A DNA stretch of 64,000 bases, taken from assembly GCF_963678975.1 (NCBI RefSeq), contig NC_089274.1:23893133-23957132 (forward strand), in the 5' to 3' direction. The notes under the pieces are model-generated. The model made no database searches, was not told the DNA's origin, and saw only the letters and a list, made by a program, of their open reading frames with translations. Below, one piece after another: positions 1 to 64,000 of the stretch (the stretch's first letter is position 1; every line of letters starts with the position of its first letter). The position numbers and the translations under genes were made by a program. Source of the DNA: Dysidea avara (taxonomy: Eukaryota; Porifera; Demospongiae; Dictyoceratida; Dysideidae).

Positions 1-178
1 ATCATATGGCTTTGTACTTTATAAACAGTCTTGCAATAAATTTTTACCCGAAAAACCACCTGAATGCATTAGTACTGCTGTAATGAGGTTAAACAAAGCA
101 GAAAGATGAATGTTTCAATGTACAGTGAGTTTTAAAATTTTCAAGTCGCCTACATGTCGTCTACCTGCCTTCCTGCTA

Positions 179-431
179 CAGTAGGACCTCGATTATCTGA
201 ATCTCGATTATCCGAACCCTCAATTATCCAAACAGCGTAAGTGACTGCTCTATTAGAGTATTTCGTCATTAGGTGAACGTTCTATTAGAGAAGGTGTATG
301 TTCTATTAGAGTAGTTGAACAGAACTCTGTATATAAATGAATGGGCTTCATTTATCCGAACAAATTCACTTATCTGAACACTTTTATGATTTAACTGGCA
401 CACAGGTGTTCGGATAATGGAGGTCCTACTG
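179..431. mobile_element. pogo/Tigger-like non-autonomous DNA transposon
   Basis: The terminal inverted repeats start CAGTAGGACCTCGATTAT on the left, with the inverse ending GGTCCTACTG on the right. It is flanked by TA on both sides. The paralogous segment near 57865 has the uninterrupted site (CCTGCTACCTGCC), so the insertion is confirmed by an empty site. Three ATTAGAG motifs lie inside it. There is no transposase. Confidence 0.85.
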
Positions 432-582
432 TACTTACCTGCTGTAAAACCTTGGTAGCGCTAGGTGTACAGCTCCAGGAATTTCTGACAGCTAAGGTAA
501 TGATGGTGGATTCATGGATCTGTTGCTCCGATTATGTTTTGTCCACTGTACCATGCCGTTCATTTTCATCATACATTGGCCT

Positions 583-1043
583 TAGGGGTGCAACAATATA
601 TCGATATATAGCAATATTTTCTATCACAATACAAGTGTGATGAAACATATCGATATATTGCATATTGCAATATATCGCTGTGTTACAATATATTGCATAA
701 TAATATTACAGGGTTGTAATGGGCTGTGGTTTGTGGATAATTAGCCTATTCAGCTGCCACCTTCCTGGAGGGCGGGAATCAAAGCCACCAGAATGCAATT
801 GTTGATGTTTTAGAAGCCACATATCCTAAACAAACAGTACTGGTTGTAGTACTGCCTACTTGTACTGTAATACCTATTTAATAACTGTTGGCCATTATAA
901 GTAGCTTTTGACTGGTGGGTGTACACCACATGACACTAATGCTATCTGCTGTATCTTATGAAGCTTAAATCCATGAGTTATTTACACAATATTTTTTTAA
1001 GGCAATACGCAATATGGTATTTACCCATATTGTTGCATCCCTA
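583..1043. mobile_element. hAT-type MITE
   Basis: The ends are TAGGGGTGCAACAATAT and ATATTGTTGCATCCCTA. The 8-base target duplication ATTGGCCT is at 575-582 and 1044-1051. The paralogous segment (about 58010) lacks the element. The interior is rich in ATCGATAT-like palindromes. No coding capacity was seen. Confidence 0.88.
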
Positions 1044-1198
1044 ATTGGCCTTATTTGTTCTTCCTGAAGGGTAATTGATAGTTGCAGCACATGTCACTGC
1101 CATAAAATGTCATTTTTTGTACATGATTTTAACGAAGTGTGAACGTGTAATATAACTAGCTAGTTAGACATAAAAATAAACAAACTAGTTAAATATTT

Positions 1199-1444
1199 AA
1201 AGGAAGTGCATGGGGATCGATATAATACACATTACAAAAAGCAAGGAAACAAAAAATAAAAATGATCCATGCAACAAAGAATAAGGAAAATAGATGGCTA
1301 CTTACTAAAATTAGACACAGTTTAATGTTTACTTTTAGCCAACATCTTGAAACCAGACTATAGCCAAAAGTAAGCATTAAAAATGTGTCTCATTTTAGTA
1401 AGTAGCCATCTATTTCTTTTTCATATCAATCCCTACTTCCTTGT
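1199..1444. mobile_element. Fold-back MITE, AAGGAAGT family
   Basis: The outer ends (AAGGAAGT...GGGGATCGATAT and ATATCAATCCCTACTTCCTT) are inverted. An inner inverted pair, GATGGCTACTTACTAAAATT, is near 1292 and 1390. The element is present in both duplicate segments (also about 58165-58425), so it predates the duplication. The AGTAGGGAT core is shared with the element at 22956. Confidence 0.6.
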
Positions 1445-1769
1445 AAAATTTTGGTTCGGAAACTGCTTTTGCTGCTTCCAGATATAGATATATGACGGGA
1501 TATGCTTGTCAGGCTGAAGCAGCTCCAAGAGTTGTGCCCATGACAGTTCAAAATGTCCTTAGTCTCCTCTTTAAAGCCACCTCAGCTTGACACATACTTA
1601 CACACCCCATGGTGTCCCCATCATGTGACTTTTATCTTGAGGTTTTCCCATGCAGGCACTGTCAGTTTATTAGACTACTTTGTAACCCTCTTCATGTCTA
1701 ATCGTTGAATTTTTCAAAATGCTTATGGTTAGCTAGTTTTCTGTGTCGATGACATATACCTAATCTAGC

Positions 1770-2328
1770 TAGTGTTGCACCAATAATCAGTTTAATAATC
1801 GGTATTGGGGCGACATTGGTTACTAGCTGATAATTGGTTTTAATTAAATCAAAGCAGATGTTAATCTCCACTGTATAATGATGTGGGGGAGGCTAGACAT
1901 AAGTTATTTGGCATTTTAATTAAGTTATGTGTTGATGATTTAGCAGTGACTACAAGCCATGCCCATAACAAACTGTCAGGTTTTAGGCCATACCAACAGT
2001 AAACTGAGGTTTAGGTTTCTATGTAGTACCAGTCACTTGTCTCACCTGTATAGCAGTAGTAAAATGTACTTAAAACCTGTTTACCTTGAGTAACTTTTAC
2101 TTATGGTATATATCTAACTTTACATTTTAGCCTAGAATGAGCATATCAATGGTTTTGTCACTAATATGAGTCATTTAGTAATGATGAGGATGAGTGTTAG
2201 TGTTATTAGGATGTGTGTTAGTGATAATTATTAGTGTATATCGGATCGATTATAGGTATCGGCTAATTCTGTTGCTTAATATCATGTTATCGGAATAATC
2301 AGCTAATTTGGATATCAATGCAACACTA
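1770..2328. mobile_element. hAT-type MITE
   Basis: The ends are TAGTGTTGCACCAATAATC and the inverse ending ATGCAACACTA. The 8-base target duplication AATCTAGC is at 1762-1769 and 2329-2336. The empty site is preserved near 58717 in the paralogous segment as a single AATCTAGC. Confidence 0.9.
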
Positions 2329-2969
2329 AATCTAGCAATACTCCAATGCAGGTCCCTGGTGGGATAGTTGACAAAACAGTCTTGACTGCTCTATTAGAGT
2401 GTTTTACTGCAGGTAATTGCTCTATTAGAGTGATTTGATCATTTTAGTGGAGGGATCCAACAATGCTACAAAGAAGCACTGTGCTGTAAAATCCAACCTG
2501 TATTATCAGGCATTGTTTGTCATCTAACCTGTAGTGATCTCTTCACTGTAGTTATTTCTCTGGAATAGTTGTTTGCACAAATTAGTAGCTAGATGACACA
2601 ATAGACTAGTACACTAGTGTGGTCATTTTGCAGCATGAGTGGCCAGCTGTGGCATATGCTAACCAACTAGCTGTCAGTCCAGACTCTGCCTAAACACCTT
2701 GCACAATGTATCCTATAGTGGAACTTAACGGATATAGCCATTAGTGTCATAAAAATATTCATGACTTATGGCTGGTAAAGTACTAGTTTGGCACATTTAA
2801 AGCATCATTATTTGGTTTTCTGTGCTTAATTGTACACCCACAATTGAAAATACACTTACGTTTGGCCTTAGTACATCTTGCTGCTTAATTTGAGCTTGTG
2901 ACTATCATGCTTGTGTGCATTATACATCAGGCAAATCACTCATGCCAATTATTACAACTTCTACATATT

Positions 2970-3166
2970 CAGTGGAATCCCTATTATCTTGGGGAAGGGT
3001 GTTTGTATAATTGAAAAGTACATAAATCAAATGTCCATACATTTATATACAGAACCTTGCTCAGTCACTCTAATAAAGTACACACTTGTTGACTAATAGG
3101 GCACTCAGCTTGGTGTTTGGATGATCAAATGTTCATGATCATGTTCGGATAATTGAGGATCCACTA
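2970..3166. mobile_element. Older pogo/Tigger-like MITE
   Basis: CAGTGGAATCCCTATTATC on the left pairs with GGATAATTGAGGATCCACT on the right. TA flanks are visible on the right here and on the left in the duplicate (about 59369). It is present in both duplicate segments and is more decayed than the element at 179-431. Confidence 0.6.
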
Positions 3167-3455
3167 TAAAATCGGTTTCCACTAGTGACATGACTCATAA
3201 GCCCTGATGTACTTGGCCAATAGTTGCTCTTCCATACTGAAATGTATGGAAGAAAAAAGCTTTGCAAACCTGTAACAGCATTAATAGGTGCATATATAGA
3301 TGGGCTGCTGGTGTAACATAGCTTCTGTTTCGTGTACCATTATATTGTTGGTCAAGATATCAACAGAAAATCCATTTTAAAAATGTTTTAGTAAATGATA
3401 TGGGATGTTCTAAGGTACATAACAGTTTAAAATTATTTTAAGTAGTGGTGAAGTC

Positions 3456-4296
3456 CAGGGGCGAATCCAGACTTTTGGAAAGGGATGGAAAGGTCAAAAT
3501 GAAATGACACTATAGGGAAGGCACACCTTTTTGTGCGAAACACAGCATGCAAGAATGCCAAGTTAGGAGGGTGCCCCTCAGGAAATGTTTTGAAAATAAG
3601 ACCTTCTGAGATGGAAACTGAGAGTGATTTCAGCATGGATTCATCACAATTTTCATTCGACTTGTACTAGAGGTGACTGCTCTATTAGGGTATCTCAATC
3701 TTGATACCTCGATTTTGATGTTTATATAGTGTACAATTTGGTGATGGGCTAGGGTTTCCAGCTACCCTCCCACTGAACTATTTTATATAGTCTGTACAGC
3801 AGCTCTGTAAAGTACACACTTATGTGCACTCAAATACAATGGTATAGTCACTAGACAGGATCTTAGAATGCACTCAATGCAGCTCCCTTGATATTAAAAG
3901 GTTTATATATTCAACAAATGTTGGTGTGTACAGCTATACAGCTATTTAGACAACAATCACTGTTTGTGCTACAGAATTTTTGTTTGATGATACAATGCCA
4001 CTCATATACACACAACTAACTGTGTGTGTACACTCAATTAAATTTAATTGTGGGCTTTAAGTAGCATGTAGATGCTGGCCATTGGGAGTATAGCATTTAT
4101 ATGATAGACACTGGTCTGATAGCTATTTGCAGCTAAAAGTCACAAATGGAAAGATAAACTTCACTGGAAGAAATTTTCATGACATATGGAGCACAATTGA
4201 CATTTATACTAAAAATTCTTGGAGGAGGGAGGGGAGGGGGGGGGGGGGGGGGGGGGGTAAAGAGCCTTTCCTGACCCATCCCTCAATCTGCCTCTG
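3456..4296. mobile_element. hAT-like element, CAGGGGCG ends
   Basis: It starts CAGGGGCGAATCCAGACTTT and ends with the inverse AATCTGCCTCTG. The 8-base duplication GTGAAGTC is at 3448-3455 and 4297-4304. A run of 22 G lies at 4236-4257. It is shared with 60573-63909, which holds an extra 2.5 kb insertion. Confidence 0.78.
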
Positions 4297-5057
4297 GTGA
4301 AGTCTTGCAAAGAATATTTTTTAGTAAGTTTTCACTGGCCCCTAAAACTGAAGATTTGGGATAGGAATTGTCCTTACGCAATAGAAATACTATAACTCAA
4401 CCATTACACTATAATGTTTATAGATTGTAATATATTTTTTGACCTACAAACGTGTCACAGAAATGTTACGGTTAAAACCATCATGCCTGAAAAAGGCAGC
4501 CCATCTATATATATAAAACAAGCATGTTATATAATATACTTCAGGCATACGATATCTACAACTTCGGCATAGGGCCAATTGATAAGCATCATGGGAAGAA
4601 ACGGTCTGCAGCTATGCAAGGCTACCTATCACTCAGGGTGGGTGATACCAGAAAATTTTGCTTCAATATGATTACCAATAGTGAGTACTATGGGAATATT
4701 GTGCTTAGTAGAGCCAAAATTTCTCAATTAAGGCTGAAACGCTTCATTTTTTTGATGTTTGCATCTTTTATATAGCTGTCAGTGTAGATGAAGTATCATG
4801 TACTTACCAGGTGTCAAAATTTCTGATTTTTCATAAAAAAGATACCAAAGTATGGCTAGGCAAACTTAATTACTTGTTTCTCATCCATGGATTTCCATGC
4901 AGGCGGCAATTCATTTTTATTAAAGAAAATGCTCCAAATCAGGCTGTCTGTTACTATAAAGGCTTTTAAATACTTACATTTTACCATCCTTTTCTGAGGT
5001 GCAAGAGACGTTTGTTGTACTGTAAAAATAATGACCATCAGTAGCCAGCCTTCTTTT

Positions 5058-6255: not shown

Positions 6256-6582
6256 CTCGTTCCGCACTGATCATGGACTTCTTTATTTCTCCAGCAAGGA
6301 ACTTCACTAGAGGGTTATCACAATTCTCCATTACTCTCAACATTACATCAAACTGTCCCGTGTATCCAATAGCATACCAGGCTTGATCACTTTGTCTAGG
6401 AAGTACTCCGCTTTCTGCTTCTGTGTATCCAATGCTTCAATTCTCGCCTTGTTATCACCGGGTAGAAGATCGTGGGAGTACAAATCAGACGATATGTTGT
6501 CCATCGGCAACACTTTCACGAGCTTGGAATAAAATTCCTTGAACGCTTTTAGTTTTATTTCACCGGTCTCATGATCAGCCAT
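6256..6582 (-). pseudogene. CARD-like first exon of CARD-NMT copy A, frameshifted
   Basis: This encodes a CARD-like domain closely matching the copy C exon at 23898-24252; shared strings include NISSDLYSH, LLPGD and DTQKQKAEYFLD. The likely start is the ATG at 6582 (MADHETGE), because it lines up with the copy C start. After 'VIKPG' one base is missing relative to copy C. The reading frame then shifts to a stop, while the expected continuation (IGYTGQFD, LRVMENC, VKFLAGEIKK) is in another frame. The exon ends at a good donor, CGAG/GTGAGG. Restoring one base would give a phase-1 exon end, as in copy C. It is either a decayed paralogue or a base error in the assembly. The second exon would lie left of base 1. 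Confidence 0.72.
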
Positions 6583-6656: not shown

Positions 6657-7926
6657 GGCCACTCCAATTGGTAATTATGTTTCTGGTCCACCGCCCGCAT
6701 CCTTTTTGGAGAATGTGAAATTTCAGAAATAGAGTAACTCACCTAAAATCGGACGGGCTCCAAAATCGGACGCAATTACTCGAGCTACAACAGGAATTTT
6801 TGAACAACTTATATGTCTTTAGGTAGTTCAAAGTTGTGGGACTTTGGGCACCAAGTATCAGCTTTCTCGGCTTCTTTGTCTGGTGGCAGCAACCCTGCAA
6901 AGTCATTTCCGATTAATGCGTATAATCGGAAAAAACAGTCGATTCACGGACACTCACCGTCTACATATCAGACTTGCATTCAATCAACAGTTTTCTACCT
7001 TAAAGTAGTAGAGTAACTCATCTACTTTCTAAATATCCCTGGTTTATTAAATCAAATCCTTTTAATCACGAATTACAAATCAAATAAAATGAGATGTCAC
7101 TGGAGTAATAATCGCACTATGAATTTAAGTATACGGAAGTAAACGATGTTTGTAAAAGTATACGGTGAACATTTTCCGTATACGTATTTCAAACAACGTA
7201 TACTTTATCAAGTTTCCGTATACTTAAATTTATGGTGCGAATATTACTCCAGTGACGTCTCATTTTATTTGATTTGTAATTCGTGATTAAAAGGATTTGA
7301 GTTAATAAACCAGGGATATTTAGAAAGTAGATGAGTTACTCTACTACTTTAAGGTAGAAAACTGTTGATTGAATGCAAGTCTGATATGTAGACGGTGAGT
7401 GTCCGTGAATCGACTGTTTTTTCCGATTATACGTATTAATCGGAAATGACTTTGCAGGGCTGCTGCCACCAGACAAAGAAGCCGAGAAAGCTGATACTTG
7501 GTGCCCAAAGTCCCACAGCCTTGAACTATCTAAAGGCATATGAGTTGTTCGAAAATTCCTGTTGTAGCTCGAGTAATTGCGTCCGATTTTGGAGCCCGTC
7601 CGATATTAGGTGAGTTCCTCTACATTGGGTAAAATGCCCGCATCAGCTTTTTAAAAAACCTGGATTTCAGAAACAAATATGGGCTGCAACAAGTATGCTA
7701 AATCTAACTATCTAAGTATCATAATGTGTATTTTATCAATGAAAACCTGCAAGAAATGGGCAGAGTACATGGTACGGATCGATATACTCTAATAGAACAG
7801 TCAGTAAATCACAAAATACTCTAATTGAGCAGTCACTTCATTGTTGCTTTGTTGCTGAATTCCGCCCGCCCGCACCTAAAACTGATTTTCAAAGGACCAG
7901 AAACATAATTACCAATTGGAGTGGCC
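6657..7926. mobile_element. Harbinger-like element carrying a large palindrome
   Basis: The ends are GGCCACTCCAATTGGTAATT and its inverse. They are flanked by TAA at 6654-6656 and 7927-7929, a 3-base duplication typical of PIF/Harbinger. Inside, about 6721-7640 is a near-perfect palindrome with arms of roughly 400 bases. The same 67-codon ORF therefore appears on both strands; this is a symmetry effect and not evidence of a gene. It starts about 75 bases upstream of the copy A CARD start codon. Confidence 0.8.
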
Positions 7927-17858: not shown

Positions 17859-19558
17859 TTAATCTATACACCAAAATTTAGCTTGAGAAACTTCATGATA
17901 CTTGTAGTTGTAAAAACAACGCTGCACTGGTGACTCTTCAATGAATGATAATGACAACAAAGTGTCAATTTGCAGATCTTGCTGTGAAATTGATAAGCTT
18001 ATTGCTCTATTGTTCTTTACAGAAACAGTCGTGTTTATTATTAGGTCCTTAACTGGAGTTCGTGTAGACACTAATATGGTTGTAACAGCACGTGGAAGTC
18101 CACTATTGTGATACAACAATCTGTAACTGACAAGGTCAGTAATGCTATCTTCAACTTCTACAATATATGTATATATGAATTTTGGTACAAATGGACATAA
18201 AAAATGATGACAAAATTCTTCCTCACTAGTAAAGAATTGCCCAATCTCAAACTGTGATGAATACTTGTTGACAAGAGCTAATGCACTAGGAACATCTTTT
18301 GATGTCATTTCCCTCCAACCGGACATTTTAGAAGCACTAAACAGCAGATATTGTGCAGGATGAAAAGCAACACAACTCCAGGTAGTAATCATTGCCACAG
18401 GCTTCAAGAAACTATACTTAAAGCCCAGCAACATCTGATTAACTTGATTTATATTAGCCCTTCGCATTAATTCCTTATACAATACATACCAAAGTCTCTT
18501 TTTACTTTCATATTTTATGTGACAAGTAATTTTAGGATATAGAAAGGTAACCGATACTCCTCCAACACTCACACAAATAGGATAAGCCAACACTACACCT
18601 ACAAGTTCACCATTAGTTGTTCTGATACCAAATTGCCACTCGCTCCTTGTGTGGGGGTGTGTGGTAAAATAATAAAACATCATAGAATTCATAGAGACAT
18701 TTTCATTGATATTCATGAACTTAATGACCTCTTCAGCATTACTACTATTTAGTGTAACCCACTGAAATCCTTTTTGTAATGAGTATGGCTCTTGTCTAAC
18801 ATGTTCTGGTAATGGTTCAATAGGACCAACCTCCCCTACCTCTTGTCCACGCCACAAAATAGGAATACCTGCATATTCATCTGCTTCCTCACAGACCAGA
18901 GACTTGACTGCTAATGATGACAACTCATCATGGTTCCTCTTCATTGAAGTATATGCTCGGTAAACTAGTTCTGGTGGTATGAACCATGTCAGTTCAACAC
19001 AACCTGTTTTAATGCAAAACAAAGCTAATTCTCCTTCATCTATGTCCAACACCTCCCTTTCAATTTTATATTTATGCTGCAGCAAGTCAAAAACAGTTAG
19101 ATCTCTTGGATGTTTATCAAATTTTTCTTCTAACTTTGTAAACCTTGTCATTGGCTTTATAAATATACAAGGAATTAATTCACTGATCTTTTTTGGATAA
19201 TATGCTTCTTTGAAGTGTTCTAACCATTCTATTGCCTCAGGTGACCCAGTTGCATATGTAAGTGCTTCAAGTAATCTAGTATCAAACCAGTTCCAGTATT
19301 CAGATTGAGCTAGTAAGTCCAGCAGCTCATCAAGTGTACTAGTACGTTTTATTTTTGGTACTAGTTTTCTAGGAAGATTACTTCCTAGAGTATTGATCCT
19401 TTGGACACAAGCTCTTCGTAGCTGTGCAAAATTAGCAGTTTCCAAAATGCTTTCAACTGCCGTTGTGGTTCTTGCAAAGGCTGCATTAATATTTAAACCT
19501 TTTGAAAATTTAACTAGCTTTGATGTACTTTGTCTGACCAGATCAGAAGATGGTGATG
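17859..19558 (-). CDS. CARD-NMT copy C, exon 2: adaptor-like domain plus N-myristoyltransferase-like domain
   Basis: This is a single open exon of 1700 bases (565 codons and a stop). It begins at an ATTAG/CATCACC acceptor with two bases completing a split codon, and there is no ATG near its 5' end, so it needs an upstream exon. Residue numbers here run from the first in-frame TTG at 19445. Order: Ser/Thr-rich linker; helical domain with LDELLDLLAQSEYWNWFDTR (about 38-57) and GCVELTW (148-154), of a type I recall in sponge and cnidarian signalling proteins; then an NMT-like module from about 194 to 528. NMT signatures: VRQEPYSLQKGFQW, WQFGIR, LVGVVLAYP, KELMRR, LKPV, and a tail FYNYKYHEVSQAKFWCID ending where NMTs end. 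True NMTs join myristate to N-terminal glycine. Here the acyl-CoA loop (human LRSKRVAP) reads YESKKRLW, so activity is doubtful. Confidence 0.85.
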
Positions 19559-19559
19559 C

Positions 19560-20320
19560 TAATGTTTAAAAGTCACAGTTAAACACAGTAGTATACAGCA
19601 ATATTACACTATGTAAAATATGACTATAACTATACATATAGGAGTTTACCAAATCCTATGGATTAGGGAACATTTAACTCTGTAAACAGTGAGCTTCAAA
19701 CATGGCTGCCGTGTACGCTATATCAAGCCACACTACTGTGTGTAGTGTGGCCAAGAAAGCTGGCGTGTCACACTTTGAGTATATTGACAGGAAGAAAAAA
19801 AAGTGGCATTTTCACACGTGCATAGTTCCATGGCCCCTTTTCCAAAGCACTCCATTTTTGCATTATAGCTGTCTGCCAGGTGGAATAGATCACACAGCAA
19901 ATTGGATTAAATTCACAACAGCCTTTTGCGATATGGGTGTTCAAAGTTTCAGTGTATTTTTTGTTCAGTTTTTTCCTTCTTATGCTGTACAGGGGCTATG
20001 GGGGCTTCGATTTCTTTTTGCACACTTTGTGAAAATTGTTATAAAACATATATAAATGTGTAGTATATAAATGTGTAGTTTGATTGTCTTGATTTTTGGC
20101 ACAAATGAAGAGTGTATAAAGATAAATTCATGTACCAAGTTTGCTGTGAATCTGATGAATATCCAAGGAGTTACGAGCATTATTCACGTAAAAAATACAA
20201 ACTTTTGTCACGGCTACACGGTAAACCGAGTATAGGAATAACTTGAAAATTAGTGTGTACATAGGCTGATCATCATAGCAGTGCCTTTTGATAGTTTGAA
20301 TAGCAATAGAGCTACAGCTA
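19560..20320. other. 5' part of the CARD-NMT copy C intron, no gene recognised
   Basis: This stretch and the region up to 23897 form the inferred 4.3 kb intron. Plus-strand ORFs such as 19702-20055 have no recognisable protein features. Confidence 0.5.
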
Positions 20321-20324
20321 CAAA

Positions 20325-20438
20325 GTAATAAAGCATATCAATTATCATCTGAAAAGTGAAGTATCCATTACATTGTTGTCAGTAATAAAGCATATCAATT
20401 ATCATCTGAAAAGTGAAGTATCCATTACATTGTTGTCA
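20325..20438. repeat. 57-base tandem repeat, two copies plus a third nearby
   Basis: The unit starting GTAATAAAGCATATCAATTA occurs at 20325-20381 and 20382-20438. A third partial copy is at about 20535-20590, followed by a second version of the same downstream sequence (CCCATTACACAGCA). Confidence 0.85.
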
Positions 20439-20639
20439 GCTATGTTCAACCCATTACACAGCATTTCAAATCAACAACTGTTCGAAAAGCACCTCTGCAA
20501 TTCATGCATACCAAAAGAAAGAAATGGGCCGCGCTCCCCAGTTATATCAATTATCATCTGAAAAGTGAAGTATCCATTACGCTTTGTTGTTGGCTATGTT
20601 AAACCCATTACACAGCAGTACAAATCAAGAACTGTTCAA

Positions 20640-21145
20640 AAAATACCTCTGCAATCAAAGTAGCCACTATGAAAAATACAGACGATTTTTGTTACAAAGG
20701 GAAGCCATCACGTGCTACTGCCAAATCAACACTTTTTGCTGTCAGTAAAGGTGAATGGGACACAAAGGAGGACACCGGTAAGTCCATGAAGAATGCATTG
20801 TACATACTGCAGTATGCCAAAAGGCACCTCTCGGGCTGAAGCAACATTGAATAGTGAAAAAATCAAGCCCGTAGCCTTAACCGTTATTGAGTTATGCTTG
20901 TCTGAAGGCATCAGTCAGGCAGTCAGTAGAAAATTCCGTTAAATAAATATTTTTAAAAATTCCATAGCAACTTGTTGCAAGTGTTTCAGGTTGATACGAA
21001 AGCTTGTTTGGGTTTAGTTTTACCTAACCAATACTGCCTCATTGTCGTCTAGGAAAATTGAGGCTGGTTTTTGGGCGATGTTATTTCATGGGCCATGCCT
21101 ACTCCTTAGTGGTTCCTACTATACAGCACCATTGCACTGTATGAT
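20640..21145. repeat. Dispersed repeat family R1, copy 1
   Basis: It shares CCTCTGCAATCAA, GGGACACA(A/G)AGGA(G/A)GAC, TCCATAGCAAC and GAGGCTGGTTTTTGGG with the stretches at about 45830-46330 and 53095-53300. No long ORF is present. It looks like a decayed element, possibly an ancient retroposon. Confidence 0.6.
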
Positions 21146-21559
21146 ATCCACTATAAAACTGCAATTGTCACTGCAAGTTCAAAGGTGTCACCAGTGCCAT
21201 AATTTGCATATGGCACAGCTGCAGACTGCAGCGAATGCATATAGCTTATAATGCACTGGTTATGGTTTTGCAGACCACAATGAGTGCATCATAAGTTACA
21301 ATACACTGACCGCAGTGCAATATACAGATATTGCACTGGCTGCGGTTTTGTGCAGCATTGCACAAGTGCCAGCAGCCAAGACCACTATGACACCTCACCT
21401 AATAGGTGGAAAGACGCCTCACGGTTCACTTGCATACTTTTATAGCCTAACATGTAAAAGTTGATTGTGGGATCATAGCGTCACCAGATGCCACTGGATC
21501 AAAGGTCAACCAAGCAGCTAATGATGGTCGAAAAAGCCAACACGGTGGCCAAAACTCTA

Positions 21560-21621
21560 ATCCACACACACACATGCGCACGCGCGTATGCACGCACACA
21601 CACACACACAAACGCATGCAT

Positions 21622-21656
<35 letters not shown>

Positions 21657-21701
21657 CATGCATGCATGCACACACACACACACACAAACGCATGCATGCA
21701 T

Positions 21702-21780
<79 letters not shown>
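21560..21780. repeat. Compound (CA)n / GCATGCATGCA microsatellite
   Basis: CA runs are broken by AAACGCATGCATGCA blocks, ending in an uninterrupted CA array of about 75 bases. All open frames across it (Thr-His or Val-Cys repeats) are artefacts. Confidence 0.95.
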
Positions 21781-21782
<2 letters not shown>

Positions 21783-22955
21783 ATAAACATGCTTATAAAC
21801 CTTACTAGTCTGATGACATGAAAGTTTAGATTAAACCGTACTCTCCACCTTTGGCAATGGGTCAATAAAACTATTATATTCTAAATAATTTTCACCATTA
21901 CATTTAATTGTGGCAGCCAGTTTTTGTCTTACCACTAGATTCGAGTTTAGCCAGTGTACATAGTAATAATTAGACTAGTAGTGGTTCAGTAGTTAGGTTT
22001 TGTTTACTTAAATCGTCTATTAGCTGCTTTTCTTTGTTCGATAGAACAATCACAGGCATCGTATGCTGAGTACTACACAATGATTGAGAGCCGAACACAG
22101 TGAATGCAGGTTAGTACTATATCAAACAGTACGGTCGTACCGTTTAAGTAGGGATCCATGTGAAATTTTTGCGTGCCACCCAAAATTCTGCCTTTAAAAA
22201 TCATCCTAGAGATATCTTATGAGACGAAAATCAACTTTACGGAATAGTACTAGTCCATATAATACATAAAACAGCATTAAATACAACAAAACACTTACAG
22301 GTGGCCGGATACAGAATTTTTAAAAATCACCAAAACTTGAATTTTAGACTGACTGCCTGCCTGACTGACCAGTCACAAGCCTAGAGGCCAAATGAAGCAG
22401 TGCACGGCCACCATTTTATGCCACAATAATAAACTCACCAGTGGGATGTGCCTTTTGGGGTTCCGACGAGTGTGTGCCCTCTGCGCCTTGTCTTTTCTTT
22501 TATCTTCAATCAGGCTGCTTGTCTTCTTCTTCATCCAACGAAACCATATCGAGGCATTAATTTTCCATATCAGCACTTTCTTTAAGCAGCATAATAGACG
22601 CCATAAGATTATTTAAGGCGCTTAGACTATGCTACTGTACAGAGGTACCGATACTAGACAGCTTTCACGATAGGTAACAAGACCATGCCCATTCTTCATT
22701 CTATGCATTATTGATCTATCAATTGAGACCACAATGACACACCCCTTTTACGATAGCTGTATTTCAGTGACCACACACCTTCAAGTTGGAAGGCTGACTC
22801 GAGATACTCTAATCAGTAATTGACCGAAACTATGCCCCTTTTTGGGCAAGCGCACATCTTTGCAGGCTGATCGTGACTTGAGATACTCTAATACAGCAGT
22901 CATCCTAATAGAACAGTCACATGCTGTATGCCTTAACAAAAAACTAAACAAACTA

Positions 22956-23227
22956 GTATATTAAAAATTATAAATTTAAAAATATAAAGTAGGGATCCAA
23001 GCGATAAAAAGTAGTGAAACAAGAGATGAATGATGGTAGCTATTACAGCATAACTCGGTGGGAAATCCCTACTTTGACATGGTATAGTAATTGTTTTGTG
23101 TTCAATGCCAAAGTAGGGATTTCCCACCGAGTTATGCTGCAATAGCTACCATCATTCATCTCTTGTTTCACTACTTTTTATCGCTTGGATCCCTACTTTA
23201 TTTTTAAATTTATAATTTTTAATATAC
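22956..23227. mobile_element. TA-flanked palindromic MITE
   Basis: The arms of about 130 bases are near-perfect inverted repeats, starting GTATATTAAAAATTATAAAT, with AAGTAGGGATCC inside each arm. TA lies at both flanks (22954-22955, 23228-23229), suggesting Tc1/mariner-type mobilisation. It lies inside the CARD-NMT copy C intron. Confidence 0.8.
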
Positions 23228-23897
23228 TAATAGCCCATAGCATACTAGCTTTAGTCACACGCAACATCTCAGGTGGCTGCATTACTGTAGAGGGAATGTC
23301 ACCACAACGTTTGGCTTGGTCACCATCGATGTTGGAAACCTGGCCTTTATAAGAGGTGCAGTTGTCCTGCGAGACACTCCCTACCTACGTGCTACATAAC
23401 AGTTATACAACATATACACTCATGCTCTGCCTGTATAAATTATAACTGTATACTAAATTCTGGATGAATCTGCTGCAAATTCTTAACCTTGCTTGACGAA
23501 AAGATTACACTGATATGCATGATGGTTGAAACTAGTGGGAATTCTCAAATTAGAATCTGATTGTAATTCCAAAATCTAGGAATAGCAACTTGAACCAGCA
23601 TGTTTGGTTATCCCAGAAACACATAACAATCATGTAAATCTACTTTTAAACATACTGGTACTGTGCGATTTTTACGGAAGGAAAAATTGACAAATTCACA
23701 CTTAATTCATCAGCTTTATGAGTTAAATGTTGATGAAACTCAAAATCATAGATCTAAATACATACTTTTAAAGGTGCTGATGGATGTCTGACAAATGTTG
23801 ACGATGTCAACTTCTTTTGTCAAAATTTCTTGTGGTATGATACATTTACCAATTCTGAGTATGACACGTGTTAATTTTTAACAAACATCATGTTTAC

Positions 23898-24252
23898 CTG
23901 GAGTGGGAAGAACTCCAAAATGACCATGTGATACATTTAACAGTGACGATGTTGTCGCTTCGCTGATGAACTTTTTAATCTCTCCAGCTAGGAACTTCAC
24001 TGGAGGGTCACCACTATTCTCCATCACTCTTAGCATTTCATCAAACTGTCCAGTGTATCCAATCTCTACACCTGGCCTGATCACGTGGTCTAGGAAGTAC
24101 TCCGCCTTCTGTTTCTGTGTGTCCAACGCATCAATCTTCGCCTTGTGATCACCAGGTAGAAGATTATGAGAATATAAATCACTCGATATATTATTCATCG
24201 GTAGCACTTTCACTAACTTCGCATAGAACTTCGTGAACGTTTCTTCGGCCAT
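23898..24252 (-). CDS. CARD-NMT copy C, exon 1: CARD-like domain
   Basis: This is the start exon, ATG at 24252, 118 codons plus one base, ending CCAG/GTAAAC (phase 1). It matches the two-base lead of exon 2 at 19558, giving a predicted 684-residue protein over a 4.3 kb intron. Residues about 5-95 fit a CARD (six-helix death-fold domain used for homotypic signalling assembly): FYAKLVKVLPMNNISSDLYS, LLPGDHKAKIDALDTQKQKA, EYFLDHVIRPG, FDEMLRVMENSG. A Ser/Thr/Gly/Pro-rich linker follows. The joint to exon 2 is inferred from strand, order and phase, and from a paralogous exon (6256-6582) that also ends near phase 1. An alternative is that this exon belongs to another gene whose later exons I missed. 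Confidence 0.7.
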
Positions 24253-43093: not shown

Positions 43094-43805
43094 GATGTAT
43101 GCGTTCCTAATGGATTGGAAACGCCCGTTAAATTATTTTCCTATCCTAGTTACGGTGCGCCAATACATTGGGAAATTTGTTGAGTGACTGTTTGGCTTTC
43201 TCTCGCTTGTTTGAAGGCCAGTTTGAAGGCGTGGACATTCCTTTTACATTGTTTATTGTGTTGCGTTGTGTACTGAACAAGAACACAGCGTGTCTGTGGG
43301 CACTGGGAAAAATATTGTTTGCGACAGGTGACAATGGCAGGTACGCACCAGCTAATAACTCAACAGCAGTACTATTAGCCAACTTCTTGTCACCGCATTT
43401 ACACAACCAAAGAAATGTGTGATACATTGAAATAAATTTTATGCTACAGTACTGCTCAGCTTGAGCTAAACAATAGCACAAAGTAGTGCCTGTTTTCTGA
43501 CGTTTTATCGAAGCAGTGGAAATATACAGCGGAGCAGTGAATATCTAGCTAGCCTACTACACTCTACCTGCTACAAGTGGTGTAAACAGCAACGAAGAAA
43601 CAATGGTACACTTTCTGTTTCTTCAGGAAATTTGCACAACCGTTTTGAAACACCATATTTCACCTTTGAACCTGAATTTTCTTACACTGTTGTTTACTGC
43701 TCTCCAGCGCCCCTACCCAGTCCAGCCTCCAATTAGTGTAGGTGGTAACTGACCCAGCTGTAAACAATAAACACTAATTTGCTAGTTACAAGAACAGCGA
43801 AGCCC
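43094..43805. mobile_element. Truncated inverted relative of the 49449 element
   Basis: It is roughly 90% similar by eye, in reverse orientation, to 49565-50270. It lacks the outermost CATAGATAATG terminus. Two overlapping antisense ORFs (111 and 84 codons) stay open in both copies. Confidence 0.75.
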
Positions 43806-49448: not shown

Positions 49449-50277
49449 CATAGATAATGTATGTTACATTGATTGGAAACGCCCGTATTATTTACATAGT
49501 GACGTCATGGGCTATCCTTGTTTCGCTGCGCGTAAGCTTTGTGGCCTCGACAGGAGGAAGATTTCGCTGTACCTGTAACAAGCAAATCAGTGTTTGTTGT
49601 TTACAGCTGGGTTAGTTACCACCTACACTAATTGGAGGCTGGACTGGGTAGGGACGCTGGAGAGCAGTAAACAATAGCGTAAGAAAATTCAGGTTCAAAG
49701 GTGAAATATGGGGTTTCAAAACGGTTGTGCAAATTTCCTGAAGAAACAGAAAGTGTAGCATTGTTTCTTTGCTGCTGTTTACACCACTTGTAACAGGCAG
49801 AGTGTAATAGGCTAGCTAGATATTCACTGCTTCGCTGTATATTTCCACTACTTCGATAAAACTTCAGAAAACAGGCACTACTTTGTGCTATTGTTTAGCT
49901 CAAGCTGAGCAGTACTGTAGCTTAAAATTTATTTCAATGTATCATACATTTCTTTGGTTGTGTAAATGCGGTGACGAGAAGTTGGCAAATAGTACTGCTG
50001 TTGAATTATTAGCTAGTGCGTACCTGCCATTGTCACCTGTCGCAAACAATATTTCTCCCAGTACCCACAGACACGCTGTGTTCTTGTTCAGTACACAACG
50101 CAACACAATAAACAATGTAAAAGGAATGTCCACGCCTACGAACCGGCCTTCAAACAAGCCAGAGAAAGCCAAACAGCCACTCAACAAGTTTCCCAATGTA
50201 TTGGCGCACCGTAACTAGGATAGGAAAATAATTTAACTGGCGTTTCCAATCCAGTAGGAACGCATACATTATCTATG
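49449..50277. mobile_element. 829-base DNA transposon, CATAGATAATGTATG ends
   Basis: There are 15-base perfect terminal inverted repeats (CATAGATAATGTATG) extended by GGATTGGAAACGCC-like sequence. It is flanked by GTGCATT at 49442-49448 and 50278-50284, a 7-base duplication. There is no transposase; two antisense overlapping ORFs are shared with the relative at 43094. Confidence 0.82.
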
Positions 50278-50911: not shown

Positions 50912-51597
50912 CCAACTGAGGTTAATTTGCATAGATGGAAAATTCAGTGTAATGCGCGATGTGTCTTATGTGACTCTGCACGTCCCACTACCGCCCATAT
51001 TTTGAGTGGGTGCCTCGGTGGGTGCCCAGTGGCTTTGGACCAGAATAGATACACCTACTGGCATAACTTGGCATTGCAATGTTTGGCGTACCAATTTATT
51101 GATCTTTGTGAAAATTTACCATTTATCCAAGTTTTTGTTGATCTCCCAAACTTGCAAGCCAATGTGTCACCTCCAGCCACAATTCCACCAGAGGTGATGG
51201 TGACTTCTTATCGTCCAGACCTTGTATTTTACAATACTGCCACCAACTCTATTGCCTTACTTGAGTTGACCTGTCCATTGGATTCAGAACACCATCTTCG
51301 GTCAGCCAGGTTACGTAAGCAGAACAAAGTAGAGTATCAGCAACTGTTAGCAGAATTAGATCGTTTGAATGTTCCTAACTATTACGAAACTCTTGAAATC
51401 AGCGTTCTAGGCCACTACCATCCTTCTTGTGTAAAGAACTTATGGAACCTGTTACATTTTGTTCACCAGGATATATTAGTGTCAAAGCAGCTCTAAGGAA
51501 AGTTTTGGATTCTGCTTCGCAGAAGTGTATTACAGCATCTCAAAGAATATTTATGGCTAGGGATTGTCGTGAGTGGTTTCCTGCCTCCCCAGACTGA
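50912..51597 (+). pseudogene. 3' end of a non-LTR retrotransposon with restriction-like endonuclease
   Basis: The frame opens at 50912 after a stop; it is a 5'-truncated copy, so there is no real start codon. It encodes a CCHC-type finger (CVLCDSARPTTAHILSGC) and then a restriction-like endonuclease pattern: RPDLVFYN, SIALLELTCPLDSE, and KQNKVEYQQLLAELD. This is the order expected downstream of the reverse transcriptase in R2/NeSL-type elements, whose endonuclease nicks target DNA for target-primed reverse transcription. Near 51450 the frame shifts by one base. The original tail (KAALRKVLDSAS ... WFPASPD) ends at 51597. The 3' UTR probably runs to about 51735. Confidence 0.72.
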
Positions 51598-55211: not shown

Positions 55212-56917
55212 TTAGTCCAAAGTACACCAATAATTTGCTTGAGAAATTTCATGATATCGATAGTTGTAAAAACAACGCTGCTTTGGTACACTTTGTTTGA
55301 ATGAAAGCGATTCCAAAATTTCACTCTCTATGTTACACTGTGATACAGAGAAGGTTGATGCCCCACTCTCTTTTGCATGAGCAATTCCATTTGTTAGTAA
55401 ACTTTTGATTGAAGTTTTGGTAGATACCACTGTGGTGATATGGGCATGTGATGGCATTGGCAAGCTATAATAATGAAACAATTTGAAGCTTACAAGATCA
55501 GTAACAATTGCTTTGGACTCCACTACATATGTTGAAACCAAATCTGGTACAGCTGGACACAGAAAATGATGAGAAAATTCTTCTTCACCAGTAAACACTT
55601 GGCCTATCTCGAACTGTGATGAATACTTGTTGACTAGAGCTAATGCACCTGGGATGTGCCTTGCTGTCATCTTTTTCCACCCAGGTATTCTAGAAGAACT
55701 AGATTGAAGATGTTTCGGTGCTTCAAAACGATAATTATTCCAGTTAGTTACCATAACTACAGGTCGGAATAATCTGTCTTGAAGAGATATCATCATTTGA
55801 TTGACTTTAGTTAAACTAGCCCTGCGCATCAATTCCTTGTATAACATAAACCGCAATCGTTGGTTATGATATTTTACATGGCAATTTATCTTAGACATTA
55901 TAAATGTAACTTGTACTCCTCTAATATTGAGGCAGAAAGGATAAGCCATAACTGTACCTATTAGTTTCCTACTTACTCTAATACCAAACTGCCAATCACT
56001 CCTAGTGCTGGGGTGCTTGGTGTAATAATACACCATTGTAGAATTTACAAAAGCAGAAGGATTATTTGCATTCATAAAGTCCACTATCTCATCAGCATCA
56101 TTACTACGACTTAGTGAAACCCATTGAAATCCTTGTGGTAAAGAGTATGGTTCTTGTCTAACATTTTCTGGTAATGGCTCAATAGGACCAACCTCCCCTA
56201 CCTCTTGTCCACGCCACAAAATAGGAAGGCCTGCAAATTCATCCGCTACTTTACAGACCAGAGACTTGATTGCTAATGATGACAACTCACCATGTTTTCT
56301 CTTCATTGAAGTATATGCTCGGTAAATCAGCTCATAGGGTAACTGCCATGTCAGTTCAACACAACCTGTTTTAATACAGATCAGCACCAAGTCTCCTTCC
56401 TCTATGTCTAAGATATCACGTTCAAGTTTAAATTTATGCTTTTGTAAGTCCCAAATGGTCAGTTCACTGGGAAGTTTATCAAATTTTTCATCTAGTTGTA
56501 TACACTCATTTGATGGTTTTATATAATGACAAGGAATAAATTCACTTATTTTTCTTGGATAATATGCTTTTTTGAAATCTTCAAGCCATTCTATTGCTTC
56601 AGGTAATCCCGTTGCATATGTTAGAGCTTCAAGTAGTCTAGTATCAAACCAGTTCCAGTATTCAGAATCAGCTAATAATTCTAGGAGTTCGTCCAGAGTA
56701 TTAGTGCGTCTTATTTTTCGTATTAGCTTTCTAGGGAGATTACTCCCAAGTGTATTGATCCTTTCAATACAAGCCCTTTTTAGATTGGAAAACTTCATAG
56801 TTGACAGAAAACCTTCGATTGCAGATGTTGTTTTGTTGAAAGCTGAGTCAATATTTATGTTTTCTGAAAATTTAATCAATTCTGTTGAATGTTCCTTGGC
56901 ATGGTCAGAAGATTGCC
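55212..56917 (-). CDS. CARD-NMT copy B, exon 2: adaptor-like domain plus N-myristoyltransferase-like domain
   Basis: This is a paralogue of 17859-19558 in the same layout. It starts at a CTGTAG/GGCAATC acceptor, with two bases completing a codon, so the upstream exon must end in phase 1. Order: linker with SSDHAKEHSTELIKFS; domain with YWNWFDTRLLEALTYATG and TGCVELTW; NMT-like module from LWRGQEVGEVGPIEP through RQEPYSLPQGFQW, WQFGIR, YKELMRR, ALALVNKYSSQFEIGQ to FYNYRYHEISQANYWCTLD. The acyl-CoA loop is again altered (KYHNQRLRFM where NMTs have RSKRxAP). The frame stays open upstream to an ATG at 57029, giving a hydrophobic start (TILTVICMFWVLIIV), but that extension is probably translated intron. 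The CARD exon is expected right of base 64000. Confidence 0.83.
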
Positions 56918-57687
56918 CTACAGGTAAATCAAAACAGTGTACAATAATAAGCACCCAAAACATACATATAACAGTTAAAATGGTTCTACTACCAAGCACA
57001 GGAGGATATTTTGCTATGAACCAAGGCATTAAACATCAGCCCCATTCATGCAGTTATGTAGCATGCATGGTGATGTTGCATTTAAAAGTAAGACTGCATG
57101 CCTTATGCTGTATACTGAATTAATGAGCAGATTAAACAGCACAGCTATAAGCTATAGTATTGACTATATGTTCATGTTCACCACATCCACAGATACAAAC
57201 TATGTGGTGATAGTAATACTTGTCATGCAGGCCATACTTGTCATGCAGGCCATACATGTAACACCATGTAATATTCATGACACTACTCATATTTATGGAC
57301 AAGTAATGCATGTATGATACTAAGATACTGGGCTTTACAGAGCGAAGACACTGGTTTTCCCTTCTCCAAGCCCCTCTCATAATTGTACTGGTAATTAAGC
57401 TGAGTGTACTATAGGGTAGCTAATTTTTGTTTTAGTTGTAGTTATGATATCTTTGCTTCAATTCTATAATACGTACCATTTACTGCATGAAAAAAATTAA
57501 GCACATTCATGACACTTCATTTACTCTCAGAAAAAATGAATTTGTGCATGGTATAGTATGTAGCACCAATACCTGTTCATGACTTGACCTATTGTGTAAT
57601 TTGTTACGTTTAAACTTGCAATGACAAAAATAAGTCAATATTATTAAGCACAGTAGTACTTAATAAGCAGGGATCAGTAAGAAATCA
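56918..57687. other. 5' flank or intron of CARD-NMT copy B
   Basis: Inferred intron sequence. There is a small tandem repeat at 57217-57254 (CTTGTCATGCAGGCCATA, two copies). No gene. Confidence 0.5.
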
Positions 57688-59741
57688 TAATGGCTTTGTA
57701 CTTTACAAACAGTCTTGCAATAAATTTTACCCGAAAAACCACCTTGAATGTATTAGTACTGCTGTAATGAGGTTAAACAAAGCAGAAAGATGAATGTTTC
57801 AATGTACAGTGAGTTTTAAAAATTTCAAGTCGCCTACATTTCATCTGCCTGCCTTCCTGCTACCTGCCTGCTGTAAAACCCTGGTAGCGCTAGGTGTACA
57901 GCTCCAGAAATTTCAGACAGCTAAGGTAATGATGGTGTATTCATGGATTTGTTGTTCCGATTATGCTTTGTCCACTGTACCATATATGCTGCTCATTTTC
58001 ATCATTCATTGGTCTTACTTGTTTTTCCTGAAGGATAATTGATAGTTGTGGTACATGCCACTGCCATAAAATGTCATTTTTACATGTGATTTTAATGAAG
58101 TGTGAACACGTAACATAACTAGCTAGTTAGAGATAAAATAAACAAACTAGTTATTAAAAATTTAAAGGAAGTGGGGATTGATATAATACACATTACAAAA
58201 GTAAGGAAATAAGTTACAGCTGAAATAAAAATGATCTATGCAACAAAGAATAAGGAAAAAAGTCAAAATAGACGGCTACTTACTAAAATTAGGCACATTT
58301 TAATGCTTACTTTTAGCTAACATCTTGAAACAAGACTAGCCAAAAGTCAGCATTAAAATATGTTTCATTTTAGCAAGTAGCCATCTAATTTCTTTTTCGC
58401 ATCAAGCCCTACTTCCTTGAAAAATTTTGTTTTGAAAACTGCTTTTGCTGCTTCCAGATAAAGTTATATGATGGGATATGCTTGTCAGGCTCCAAGAGTA
58501 GTGCCCATGACAGTTCACATTGTCCTTAGTCTCTTCTTTAAAGCCACCTCAGCTTGACACATACTTACACATCCCATGATGTCCCCATCATGTGACTTTT
58601 ATCTTGAAGTTTTCCCACACAGGCACTGTCAGTTTATTAGACTGCTTTGTAACCCTCTTCATGTCTAATCATTGAATTTTTCAAAATGCTTATGGTTAGC
58701 TAGTTTTCAGTGTACTAATCTAGCAATACTCCAATGCAGGTACCTGGTTGGATAGTTGACAAAACAGTCTTAACTGCTCTATTAGAGTGTTTTACTACAG
58801 GTAATTACTCTATTAGAGTGTTTTGATCATTTTAGTGGAGGGATCCAACAATGCTACAAAGAAGCATTGTGCTGTAAAATCCAACCTGTATTATCAAGCA
58901 TTGTTTGTCGTGCAACCTGTAGTGATCTCTTCACAGTAACTATTTCTCCGGAACAGTTGTTTGCACAAAGTTTTTAACTTAGTAGCTAGATGACACAATA
59001 GACTAGTACACTAGTGTGGTCATTCTGCAGCATGAGTGGCCAGCTGTGGCATATACTAACCAGCCAGCTGCCAGTCCAGACTCTGCCTAAACACCTTGCA
59101 CGATGTATCCTACAGTGGAGCTTAATGGATATAGCCATTAGCATCGTAAAAATATTCATGACTTATGGCTGGTAAAGTAACTAGTTTGGCACATTTAAAG
59201 CATCATTATTTGGTTTTCTGTGCTTAATTACACACCCACAATTGAAGATACACTTACGTTTGGCCTCAGTACATCTTGTTACTTAATTTGAGCTTGTGAC
59301 CCTCATGCTTGTGTGTATTATACATCAGGCAAATCACTCATGCCCATTATTACAACTCCTACATATACAGTGGAATCCCTATTGGCTTGGGGGAAGGGTG
59401 TTTGTATAATTGAAAAGTACATAAATCAAATGTCCATACAGTTATATACAGAGCTTTGCTCAGTTATTCTAATAAAGCACACACTTATTGACTGATTGGG
59501 CAGTCAGCTATAATCAAATGTTCATGATTAGTTGATAGGTGTTCGGATAATTATAAAATTGGTTTCCACCAGTGACATGATTCATAATACTTGGCCAATA
59601 GTTGTTCTTCCATACTGAAATGTAGGGGGAAAAAAAACAAAAAACTTTGCAAACCGGTGACAGCATTAATAGGTGCATATATAGACGGGCTGCTGGTGTG
59701 TCCCCTGTGTAACATATGCTTCTGTTTCATGTACCATTATA

Positions 59742-60385
59742 TGTGACCGGATCTGTGAAAACAGGACACAATTGCATATTTTTTGAATTCCTGTTTATTA
59801 AATATCTATACGCTACTTAGTTAAGTGTACCCACTGACAAAATTTCAACTTCATATCCTAATAACTTTTGGAGTTACAGCCCTACAAAGTAGCAACAACA
59901 GAAAAATCGATATGTACAGCAAGTATAGGGAAAATAAATTACAGGCGCTTACAAAAACGGTTGTAACTTACAAATGGACTGAGGTACGGAGTTAAACTTT
60001 TCACCATCATGTTCACCATGAACAGGGGAATCAATTACTGGGTAAGGGTTTCCTTTACTCGCCCTTCTTCACTGCATACAAAGGCAAAATTCATGAAGAA
60101 AAATTGATTGCATACGATCGCTTTGACATGTCGTAAACAAACACTCATACCTTACGTATCCTTGGGTCCACTGCAACAAAACAAAGTTTCCAACTCCTCT
60201 TGAGCAGGTGAATAAGATGATATCCAGGGTTTTATTGTTAGTTCTTTCCTTCACTAAGAAAGAGGGGTTAAAAAATTTACGATTTTTTTCAGTAATACGC
60301 AAGTATTTCACCCAATGTATTTAATGCTTTATACTGTAAATTTAGGCTTGTGCAATTATGTCCCTTTTTCGCAGATCTGGTCACA
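59742..60385. mobile_element. TA-flanked MITE, TGTGACCGG ends
   Basis: The ends are TGTGACCGGATCTGTGAAAA and the inverse of TGTGACCAGATCTGCGAAAA. They are flanked by TA at 59740-59741 and 60386-60387. The paralogous segment near 3340-3352 shows the intact empty site CCATTATATTGTTGG. Related to 31879-32135. Confidence 0.9.
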
Positions 60386-60572
60386 TATTGTTGGTAAAGA
60401 CATCAACAGAAAATTCATTTTTAAAATGTTTTAGTAAATGATATAAGGTGCAAACCAATTATTCTAAGTGGAGTCACATTTTTACTTATAGTTTTGTTTA
60501 CTGTAGCTACTTGATTGTTGTAGATACGATTTTGTACTTGGGAAAAAAATTATTCTAAGTAGTGGTGAAGTC

Positions 60573-63909: not shown

Positions 63910-64000
63910 GTGAAGTCTTGCAAAGAATACTATTTTTAGTAAGCTTTCACTGGCACCTAAAACCGAAGATTTGGGATAGGAATTGTCCTTACGCAATAGA

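Follow-up and report, generated by a model that had tools for sequence, protein, structure and literature searches.

According to the main text of Kaur et al. 2021 (PMC8195603), large multigene expansions of TRADD-N proteins occur in the sponge Amphimedon, in Branchiostoma, in Crassostrea and in cnidarians. Amphimedon has 357 such proteins, most of which combine a TRADD-N domain with one, two or three death-like domains and have a variable C-terminus. The turn between β2 and β3 of TRADD-N carries a Gly-Ser, sometimes Cys, motif, and the word "myristoyl" is absent from that main text. In the sponge Dysidea avara, NLRC receptors (CARD-NACHT-LRR) form a multigene family with a presumed innate role (PMC12909245). 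The third related system is the enzyme N-myristoyltransferase (NMT). Human NMT1 (hNMT1) uses Tyr180, Tyr192, Asn246, the oxyanion hole of Phe247 and Leu248, Thr282 and the C-terminal carboxylate, as given in PMC7048800. Here we describe gene A of Dysidea avara and its family, in which a CARD-like domain and a unit with the motif WNWFD are fused to an NMT-like module. Gene A lies in the window, the whole stretch of 64,000 nucleotides that was analysed (C3:23893133-23957132 in an assembly of 551 Mb and 108 contigs). The family may consist of death-fold receptors or adaptors in which a dead NMT fold provides a ligand groove that has diversified between copies; we put the probability of this reading at roughly 0.56.

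The family is a large multigene one like the TRADD-N expansions, with which it appears to share the N-terminal death-like domain(s), a roughly 100-residue unit in which a G-S or G-C motif precedes a conserved W, and a variable C-terminal module. The trait of a constant unit followed by a variable C-terminus in many copies is also found here (140 unit matches, and 43 of 45 NMT loci). The difference is that the C-terminal modules of those expansions, as described in the main text of PMC8195603, are of other kinds, whereas here an NMT fold with a hypervariable cleft occurs at 45 loci. PF01233 and PF02799, the RQEPY(S/T)L stretch, parts of the coenzyme A (CoA) loop and a similar chain end are shared with NMT1 and NMT2. 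Unlike these enzymes, the family has a death-fold-like head and has lost the catalytic residues and the Ab-loop, and the groove that is conserved in the enzyme is its most variable part. It resembles the NLRC receptors in the CARD-type head, the multigene organization, the sponge host and the presumed innate role. However, the 27 frames scanned matched 23 Pfam families without NACHT or LRR, and the recognition part would be the NMT fold.

Domain architecture and copy number

Gene A consists of the following parts (a slash marks the exon boundary).

23898..24252, minus strand: exon 1, CARD-like (355 nucleotides; ATG at 24252; phase-1 donor CCAG/GTAAAC)
19559..23897, minus strand: intron (4.3 kb; a long TG repeat inside)
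17859..19558, minus strand: exon 2 with death-like (WNWFD), TRADD-N-like and NMT-like parts (1,700 nucleotides; acceptor ATTAG/CA, phase 1; stop codon at 17859-17861)
19167..19502, minus strand: WNWFD region of exon 2, putatively death-fold-like (no profile match above the cut-off)
19281-19295, minus strand: the WNWFD motif itself, in exon 2
18873..19166, minus strand: putative TRADD-N-like region with the G-(S/C) motif, assigned after the description in the main text of PMC8195603
17862..18872, minus strand: NMT-like module (PF01233 and PF02799)

The joined exons give 684 codons and a stop. The first in-frame ATG of exon 2 is not before its residue 136; this means that the exon needs an upstream exon. 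The exon coordinates, the phase-1 junction, the 684-residue product and the missing 5' ATG of exon 2 given in the preliminary description were all correct on re-reading. The NMT module proposed there is real: exon 2 matches PF01233 with 48 bits (cut-off 25) and PF02799 with 54.7 bits (cut-off 27.9), and the nearest solved structures are human NMT2 (E 5e-22) and human NMT1 (E 7e-18). The CARD proposed for exon 1 fared less well. PF00619 (CARD) was the sole Pfam match, but its score of 17.4 bits (E 0.0045) is under the cut-off of 23.9.

At locus L021 (contig C11, L021 6898-9033), a single open frame of 711 residues encodes all three parts, CARD-like, WNWFD and NMT, so that the fusion does not depend on the splice prediction. 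It should be added that no poly-A tract follows the stop codon of this copy; a retrocopy origin was considered, and only "intronless" can be stated.

The PF02799 search of the genome gave 48 matches, which led to 45 NMT-like loci; two exons of canonical NMT (C3:773913 and 775533) and a broken stretch (C3:24500066) are excluded from this number. Several of the 45 loci are broken (e.g., L027, L028, L036, L037, and L040). The genome has one canonical multi-exon NMT (L010, L045). Both NMT Pfam families were present in all 27 frames scanned, when E values up to 0.5 were allowed. In 43 of the 45 loci, a WNWFD-type unit precedes the NMT part on the same strand at a distance of up to 3.5 kb; the 47 of 140 unit matches near NMT loci were used for this count. 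For 16 of the 45 loci, a CARD match was found on the same strand no more than 25 kb upstream, compared with 4 downstream and none on the opposite strand, and 2,000 shifted trials gave a mean of 0.26 and a maximum of 3. This linkage was calculated with the 150 scored matches out of 416 candidates, so a CARD may be missed. All of the 16 CARD-linked loci fall among the 22 WNWFD-type loci, defined by a unit with at least 49% identity in at least one piece, and none among the remaining 23. Phase-1 donor candidates were found in 8 of 10 CARD exons (L016 had none at the score used, and L017 had phase 2). Phase-1 acceptor candidates were found in 16 of 16 exon-2 copies; other phases were also found in most of them, so this agreement counts for little. 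The single frame of L021 and the linkage statistics support the earlier proposal that the CARD-like, WNWFD and NMT pieces form one protein, and the architecture and copy number of the family are established.

The WNWFD stretch and the next about 100 residues behave as a unit. Of its 140 matches in the genome, 93 lie away from NMT loci, mostly on shorter open frames; the stretch is not peculiar to the CARD-NMT protein, which corrects the preliminary description in this respect. CARD-like matches are also common, with 150 found among the 150 of 416 candidates that were scored. Many of the CARD-like matches and the non-NMT WNWFD units are on contigs C1, C5, C6, and C15. Elsewhere in the genome, the CARD-like/WNWFD head probably precedes C-terminal modules of other kinds. 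As for the middle unit itself, it might be composed of a death-like domain followed by a TRADD-N-like domain. By eye, subfamily 2 carries GS ahead of the conserved W, and subfamily 1 carries GC. The model PF13820 (NCOA6 TRADD-N) was silent in this genome and in the control genomes alike, and is hence uninformative. The WNWFD region of gene B, a paralogue in the same window, matched only DUF5049 in Pfam, with an E value of 0.078, below the cut-off.

Two further observations concern these domains. When the alignments of the CARD, WNWFD, and TRADD-N-like parts were searched against PDB profiles, no convincing match was obtained; a weak similarity of the CARD exon to chains named RNA-binding protein 16 (best E 0.0077 with a 3-row alignment) was gone with a 10-row alignment. 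Locus L038 (C9:21643900-21647100) has a frame of 895 residues with a long SSQGPLQ-type repeat upstream of its WNWFD-type unit.

Catalytic residues and diversification of the groove

Comparison of 33 aligned paralogues with hNMT1 reveals the loss of the catalytic residues. The human residue is kept at Tyr180 in 2 copies, at Tyr192 and Asn246 in none, at Phe247 and Leu248 in 1 each, and at Thr282 in 4. Since only 0-4 of the 33 paralogues keep any one of these six key residues, catalysis looks lost; the module seems no longer to myristoylate by the known NMT mechanism. In the alignment to hNMT1, the Ab-loop of the paralogues is shortened, and subfamily 1 is one residue short between Cys249 and His251. 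In most copies, the N of the YN motif lies 15-18 residues from the chain end. The corresponding number in hNMT1 is 17. L034, L039, L041, and L043 have C-terminal extensions.

Two other features of the module should be mentioned. The subfamily-2 and C6 copies (L030-L033, L038, L046, and L047) have Cys-containing C-terminal tails, such as EEKCCLFSCC and EESCCVF, which could be lipidated. The singleton L009 (C1:63389145-63390134) gives the strongest NMT match (99 bits); its WNWFD unit is diverged (SWFD), and it contains a long insert. It groups with the human NMTs in the tree, yet lacks all six catalytic residues examined.

The variable parts of the module in gene A are as follows.

18672..18707, minus strand: hypervariable segment 1, aligned with hNMT1 179-198 (the Ab-loop of NMT)
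18522..18533, minus strand: hypervariable segment 2, aligned with hNMT1 246-249 (Asn246 and oxyanion-hole residues)
18405..18428, minus strand: hypervariable segment 3, aligned with hNMT1 281-288 (Thr282 platform, fg-loop)
18084..18122, minus strand: hypervariable segment 4, aligned with hNMT1 401-420 (Ser405, Leu416, and Tyr420)
17985..18002, minus strand: variable strand with an alternating pattern, aligned with hNMT1 448-453
17919..17942, minus strand: hypervariable segment 5, aligned with hNMT1 468-476 (Asp471)

For subfamily 1, 17 intact frames were analysed: among the 22 WNWFD-type loci, the broken L018, L036, and L037 and two loci on C11 were left out. The most variable stretches of its NMT domain are those aligned with hNMT1 179-198, 281-287, 402-417, and 470-475. 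The strands show an alternating pattern in which one face varies and the other does not; for example, Trp297 is nearly fixed between the variable positions 296 and 298. A groove list of 27 positions (peptide or inhibitor site, oxyanion hole, and adenine contact) was taken from the parts of PMC7048800 and PMC9457982 that describe them; it was compiled with the alignment already in view, but its members are those named in the papers. The 21 positions of this list that map in subfamily 1 have a mean entropy of 2.90 bits, compared with 1.24 bits for the other 304 columns. This value was reached by none of 20,000 random sets and none of 324 circular shifts. The top tenth of variability includes 14 of the 21 groove positions and 19 of the 304 others, and many of these 19 adjoin the groove positions in the same loops or strands. 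An earlier list of 29 positions, 12 of which were included as general background (7 of these are also named in PMC9457982), gave the same answer in subfamily 1. With this earlier list, the groove of subfamily 2 has 1.91 bits against 1.11 bits elsewhere, a value reached by 1 of 5,000 random sets and none of 314 shifts, in 9 sequences remaining after three near-identical copies were removed.

In the enzymes, the same positions are conserved. hNMT1 and hNMT2 agree at all 27 groove positions compared and at 268 of the other 323. The canonical NMT of the sponge has the hNMT1 residue at 23 of the 24 groove positions covered and at 166 of the other 293, a figure that intron read-through in the matches has lowered. 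The variability of the groove in this family is therefore the reverse of the enzyme pattern.

The overall pairwise ratio of nonsynonymous to synonymous substitution rates (dN/dS) was 0.37-0.63 among the 14 subfamily-1 pairs of lowest dS, which means that these genes are maintained. Pooled over eight hand-picked pairs, NG86 dN/dS came to 0.35 in the constant unit, 0.49 in the NMT domain outside the groove, and 1.14 (0.85-1.49) within the groove. Because NG86 becomes unreliable when sequences are this divergent, codon positions 1 and 2 were compared with four-fold synonymous sites in eight subfamily-1 pairs chosen by a greedy rule, which are disjoint in their sequences and not proven to be sisters. 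Codon positions 1 and 2 differed at 186 of 324 sites in the groove (0.57) and at 69 of 128 sites (0.54) in groove columns away from gaps. The corresponding numbers were 943 of 4802 (0.20) in the rest of the domain, and 137 of 645 (0.21) for the four-fold sites elsewhere in the domain. The groove excess was observed in 7 of the 8 disjoint pairs and in 133 of all 136 subfamily-1 pairs. Subfamily 2 repeats it more weakly, in 46 of 66 pairs, with 79/284 vs 87/478 in the pooled disjoint pairs. Change in the groove above the synonymous rate points to diversifying selection, to which gene conversion between paralogues may have contributed.

Duplicated units in and around the window

Besides gene A, the window contains parts of two related genes.

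55212..56917, minus strand: exon 2 of gene B (60% identical to that of gene A; acceptor CTGTAG/GG, phase 1)
6256..6582, minus strand: exon 1 of gene C, CARD-like (phase-1 donor CGAG/GTGAGG; one-base frameshift near 6372)
1..4385, minus strand: stretch between the CARD exon and the NMT exon of gene C (tandem segmental duplication)

The region 1-4385, downstream of the CARD exon of gene C, and the region 57684-64000, upstream of the NMT exon of gene B, are colinear in pieces with 82-95% identity. An NMT exon was therefore expected before the window and a CARD exon after it. The genome search located the NMT match of gene C (L029) at C3:23891258-23891671, 1.5 kb ahead of the window start, and the CARD match of gene B (L044) at C3:23964268-23964555, 7.1 kb past the window end. 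The remark in the preliminary description that paralogous pieces repeat the pattern thus turned out to be truer than claimed, with the missing halves of genes B and C just outside the window.

Several other elements were observed. An inverted repeat of 409 nucleotides (6730-7138 and 7214-7622, 96%, with a spacer of 75 nucleotides) is located about 150 bp upstream of the start of the CARD exon of gene C, at the expected promoter site. A second one, of 707 nucleotides (43095-43801 and 49563-50269), has arms that are 95% complementary and 5.8 kb apart. Each arm has an open frame of 132 residues, and the one checked has no Pfam match; the repeat is probably a mobile element. The 194-residue frame at 50912-51496 (plus strand) matches zf-RVT with an E value of 5e-5 and 24.3 bits, under the cut-off of 27.5, and is probably the tail of a retroelement.

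Proposed function and alternative explanations

The proposed mechanism starts from the CARD-like, death-like (WNWFD) and TRADD-N-like domains, which are fused N-terminally to the NMT fold. The peptide groove of NMT, together with its acyl end, would be retained as a cleft. Its lining would be diversified from copy to copy under selection, with slow change in the remainder of the fold and in the constant N-terminal unit. Most likely, each copy would bind a ligand of its own in the groove; the probable ligands are protein N-termini, exposed or lipidated, or short peptides from microbes, viruses, or altered self proteins. An N-terminal (acyl) peptide is suggested as the ligand because the NMT cleft binds such peptides in the enzyme form. 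Upon ligand binding, the CARD and death-like domains would be freed or clustered, so as to nucleate a death-fold signalling complex. Ligand binding by the groove, the N-terminal peptides as ligands, and the death-fold output are thus what we infer from the sequences. Of the two activities considered in the preliminary description, modification of N-termini by the NMT mechanism is unsupported, the catalytic residues being gone in nearly all of the 33 paralogues, whereas sensing by binding fits the hypervariable groove. A more specific form of the proposal is that the NMT fold is a germline-diversified recognition domain that reads foreign or altered, possibly lipidated, N-termini inside the cell and is wired to CARD/death-fold signalling; we give this form somewhat less than an even chance. 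Such reading is similar to that by a peptide-presenting groove, but would be built on a GNAT enzyme. By analogy, the variable ligand cleft recalls classical major histocompatibility complex grooves, and the host domain placed on an immune head recalls the plant receptors with integrated decoys. Unlike in these systems, the diversity is between paralogues of one genome, and no homology is claimed.

Several points weigh against this proposal. The pooled dN/dS of the groove over the eight hand-picked pairs is only 1.14 (0.85-1.49). The youngest pair, B/L029, has no groove excess. In subfamily 2, the excess is missing in 20 of 66 pairs, is reversed in L041/L043, and the two youngest, very close pairs are level. 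The sites are not independent and the pairs are perhaps not sisters, so that the Fisher values overstate the certainty. The groove positions were assigned by sequence alignment to hNMT1 and are least sure in the Ab-loop, where the length differs. The entropy of the CoA loop, 0.99 bits, is not significantly under the average. As for the head, no upstream CARD match was found for 29 of the 45 loci among the 150 of 416 candidates scored. PF00619 was matched by 7 of 10 CARD-like exons with E values of 0.0015-0.045, all below 23.9 bits; it was the sole family in 6 of these 7 and was second to RAC_head in L021. The CARD identity of exon 1 is probable, not proven. Neither the WNWFD region nor the TRADD-N-like region has a Pfam match above the cut-off or a match to a PDB profile, and their assignment as death-like and TRADD-N-like domains is therefore tentative.

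It is very improbable that the cleft varies merely through constraint relaxed after the loss of catalysis, with the pseudoenzyme fold as a scaffold. The generality of the catalytic loss across the 33 paralogues and the pooled NG86 value near 1 are what such relaxation predicts. However, neutrality would give equality with synonymous sites at most, and codon positions 1 and 2 of the groove differ 2.7 times more often than four-fold sites in the same pairs; the excess persists in the columns away from gaps, and the rest of the domain is constrained. Simple relaxation is disfavoured because the groove exceeds the synonymous sites. Active acyltransferases with shifted donor or acceptor specificity, serving as effectors after death-fold assembly, are quite improbable. 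CoA-loop columns 251, 253, 254, and 258 (hNMT1 numbering) are nearly invariant in subfamily 1, and the chain end, whose carboxylate is the base in hNMT1, is near that of hNMT1 in most copies. Furthermore, the Tyr180Phe/Asn246Ala double mutant of hNMT1 retains 89% of kcat/Km (PMC7048800, Table 1). Against such activity, the Ab-loop, Phe247/Leu248, and Thr282 are substituted in nearly all 33 copies, a residue is missing between Cys249 and His251 in subfamily 1, the lining of the active site varies among copies, and four copies have the C-terminal extensions described above. The Tyr180Ala mutant of hNMT1 drops to 0.9% of kcat/Km (PMC7048800).

The NMT module might instead act as a decoy. In that case, the dead copies would be bound by microbial factors that target or mimic the NMT of the host or its substrates, and the head would report the attack; the diversity of the cleft would follow the attackers rather than free peptides. 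We regard this as unlikely. It agrees with the fusion of a dead enzyme to signalling-type domains, with the single canonical NMT elsewhere in the genome, and with the fast change of the catalytic cleft. A decoy, however, should look like the guarded site, and the cleft has lost nearly all of the canonical residues; moreover, the copies differ strongly among themselves in the cleft. The logic would be that of the integrated decoys in plant receptors. Finally, the CARD exon might belong to another transcript, gene A being an exon-2 protein with a different first exon. CARD-like exons are common in the genome, as counted above, and the junction of gene A is a prediction from sequence. This seems extremely unlikely in view of the single frame in L021, the matching phases, the duplicated CARD-intron-NMT units, the linkage statistics (16 of 45 loci vs 0.26), and the lack of an early ATG in exon 2.

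Our preferred reading remains that of death-fold receptors or adaptors with a diversified NMT groove. Among the titles found in the open-access literature, none describes an NMT fused to a death-fold domain, and no relatives of exon 2 and alignment A1 were found in viral contigs and other genome contigs. The results point to the CARD-NMT family as an immune-type sensor of a new kind. Discussions of innate recognition in early animals deal mostly with the NACHT-LRR, Toll/Ig, and scavenger families. If the reading is true, it adds a recognition module not met in the literature searched, in which the substrate cleft of a housekeeping enzyme becomes a receptor site. It predicts the binding residues, missing acyl-CoA turnover, and N-terminal peptides or acyl peptides as ligands. 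It would also offer a concrete route to cases of an "enzyme cleft turned hypervariable" among other multigene families.

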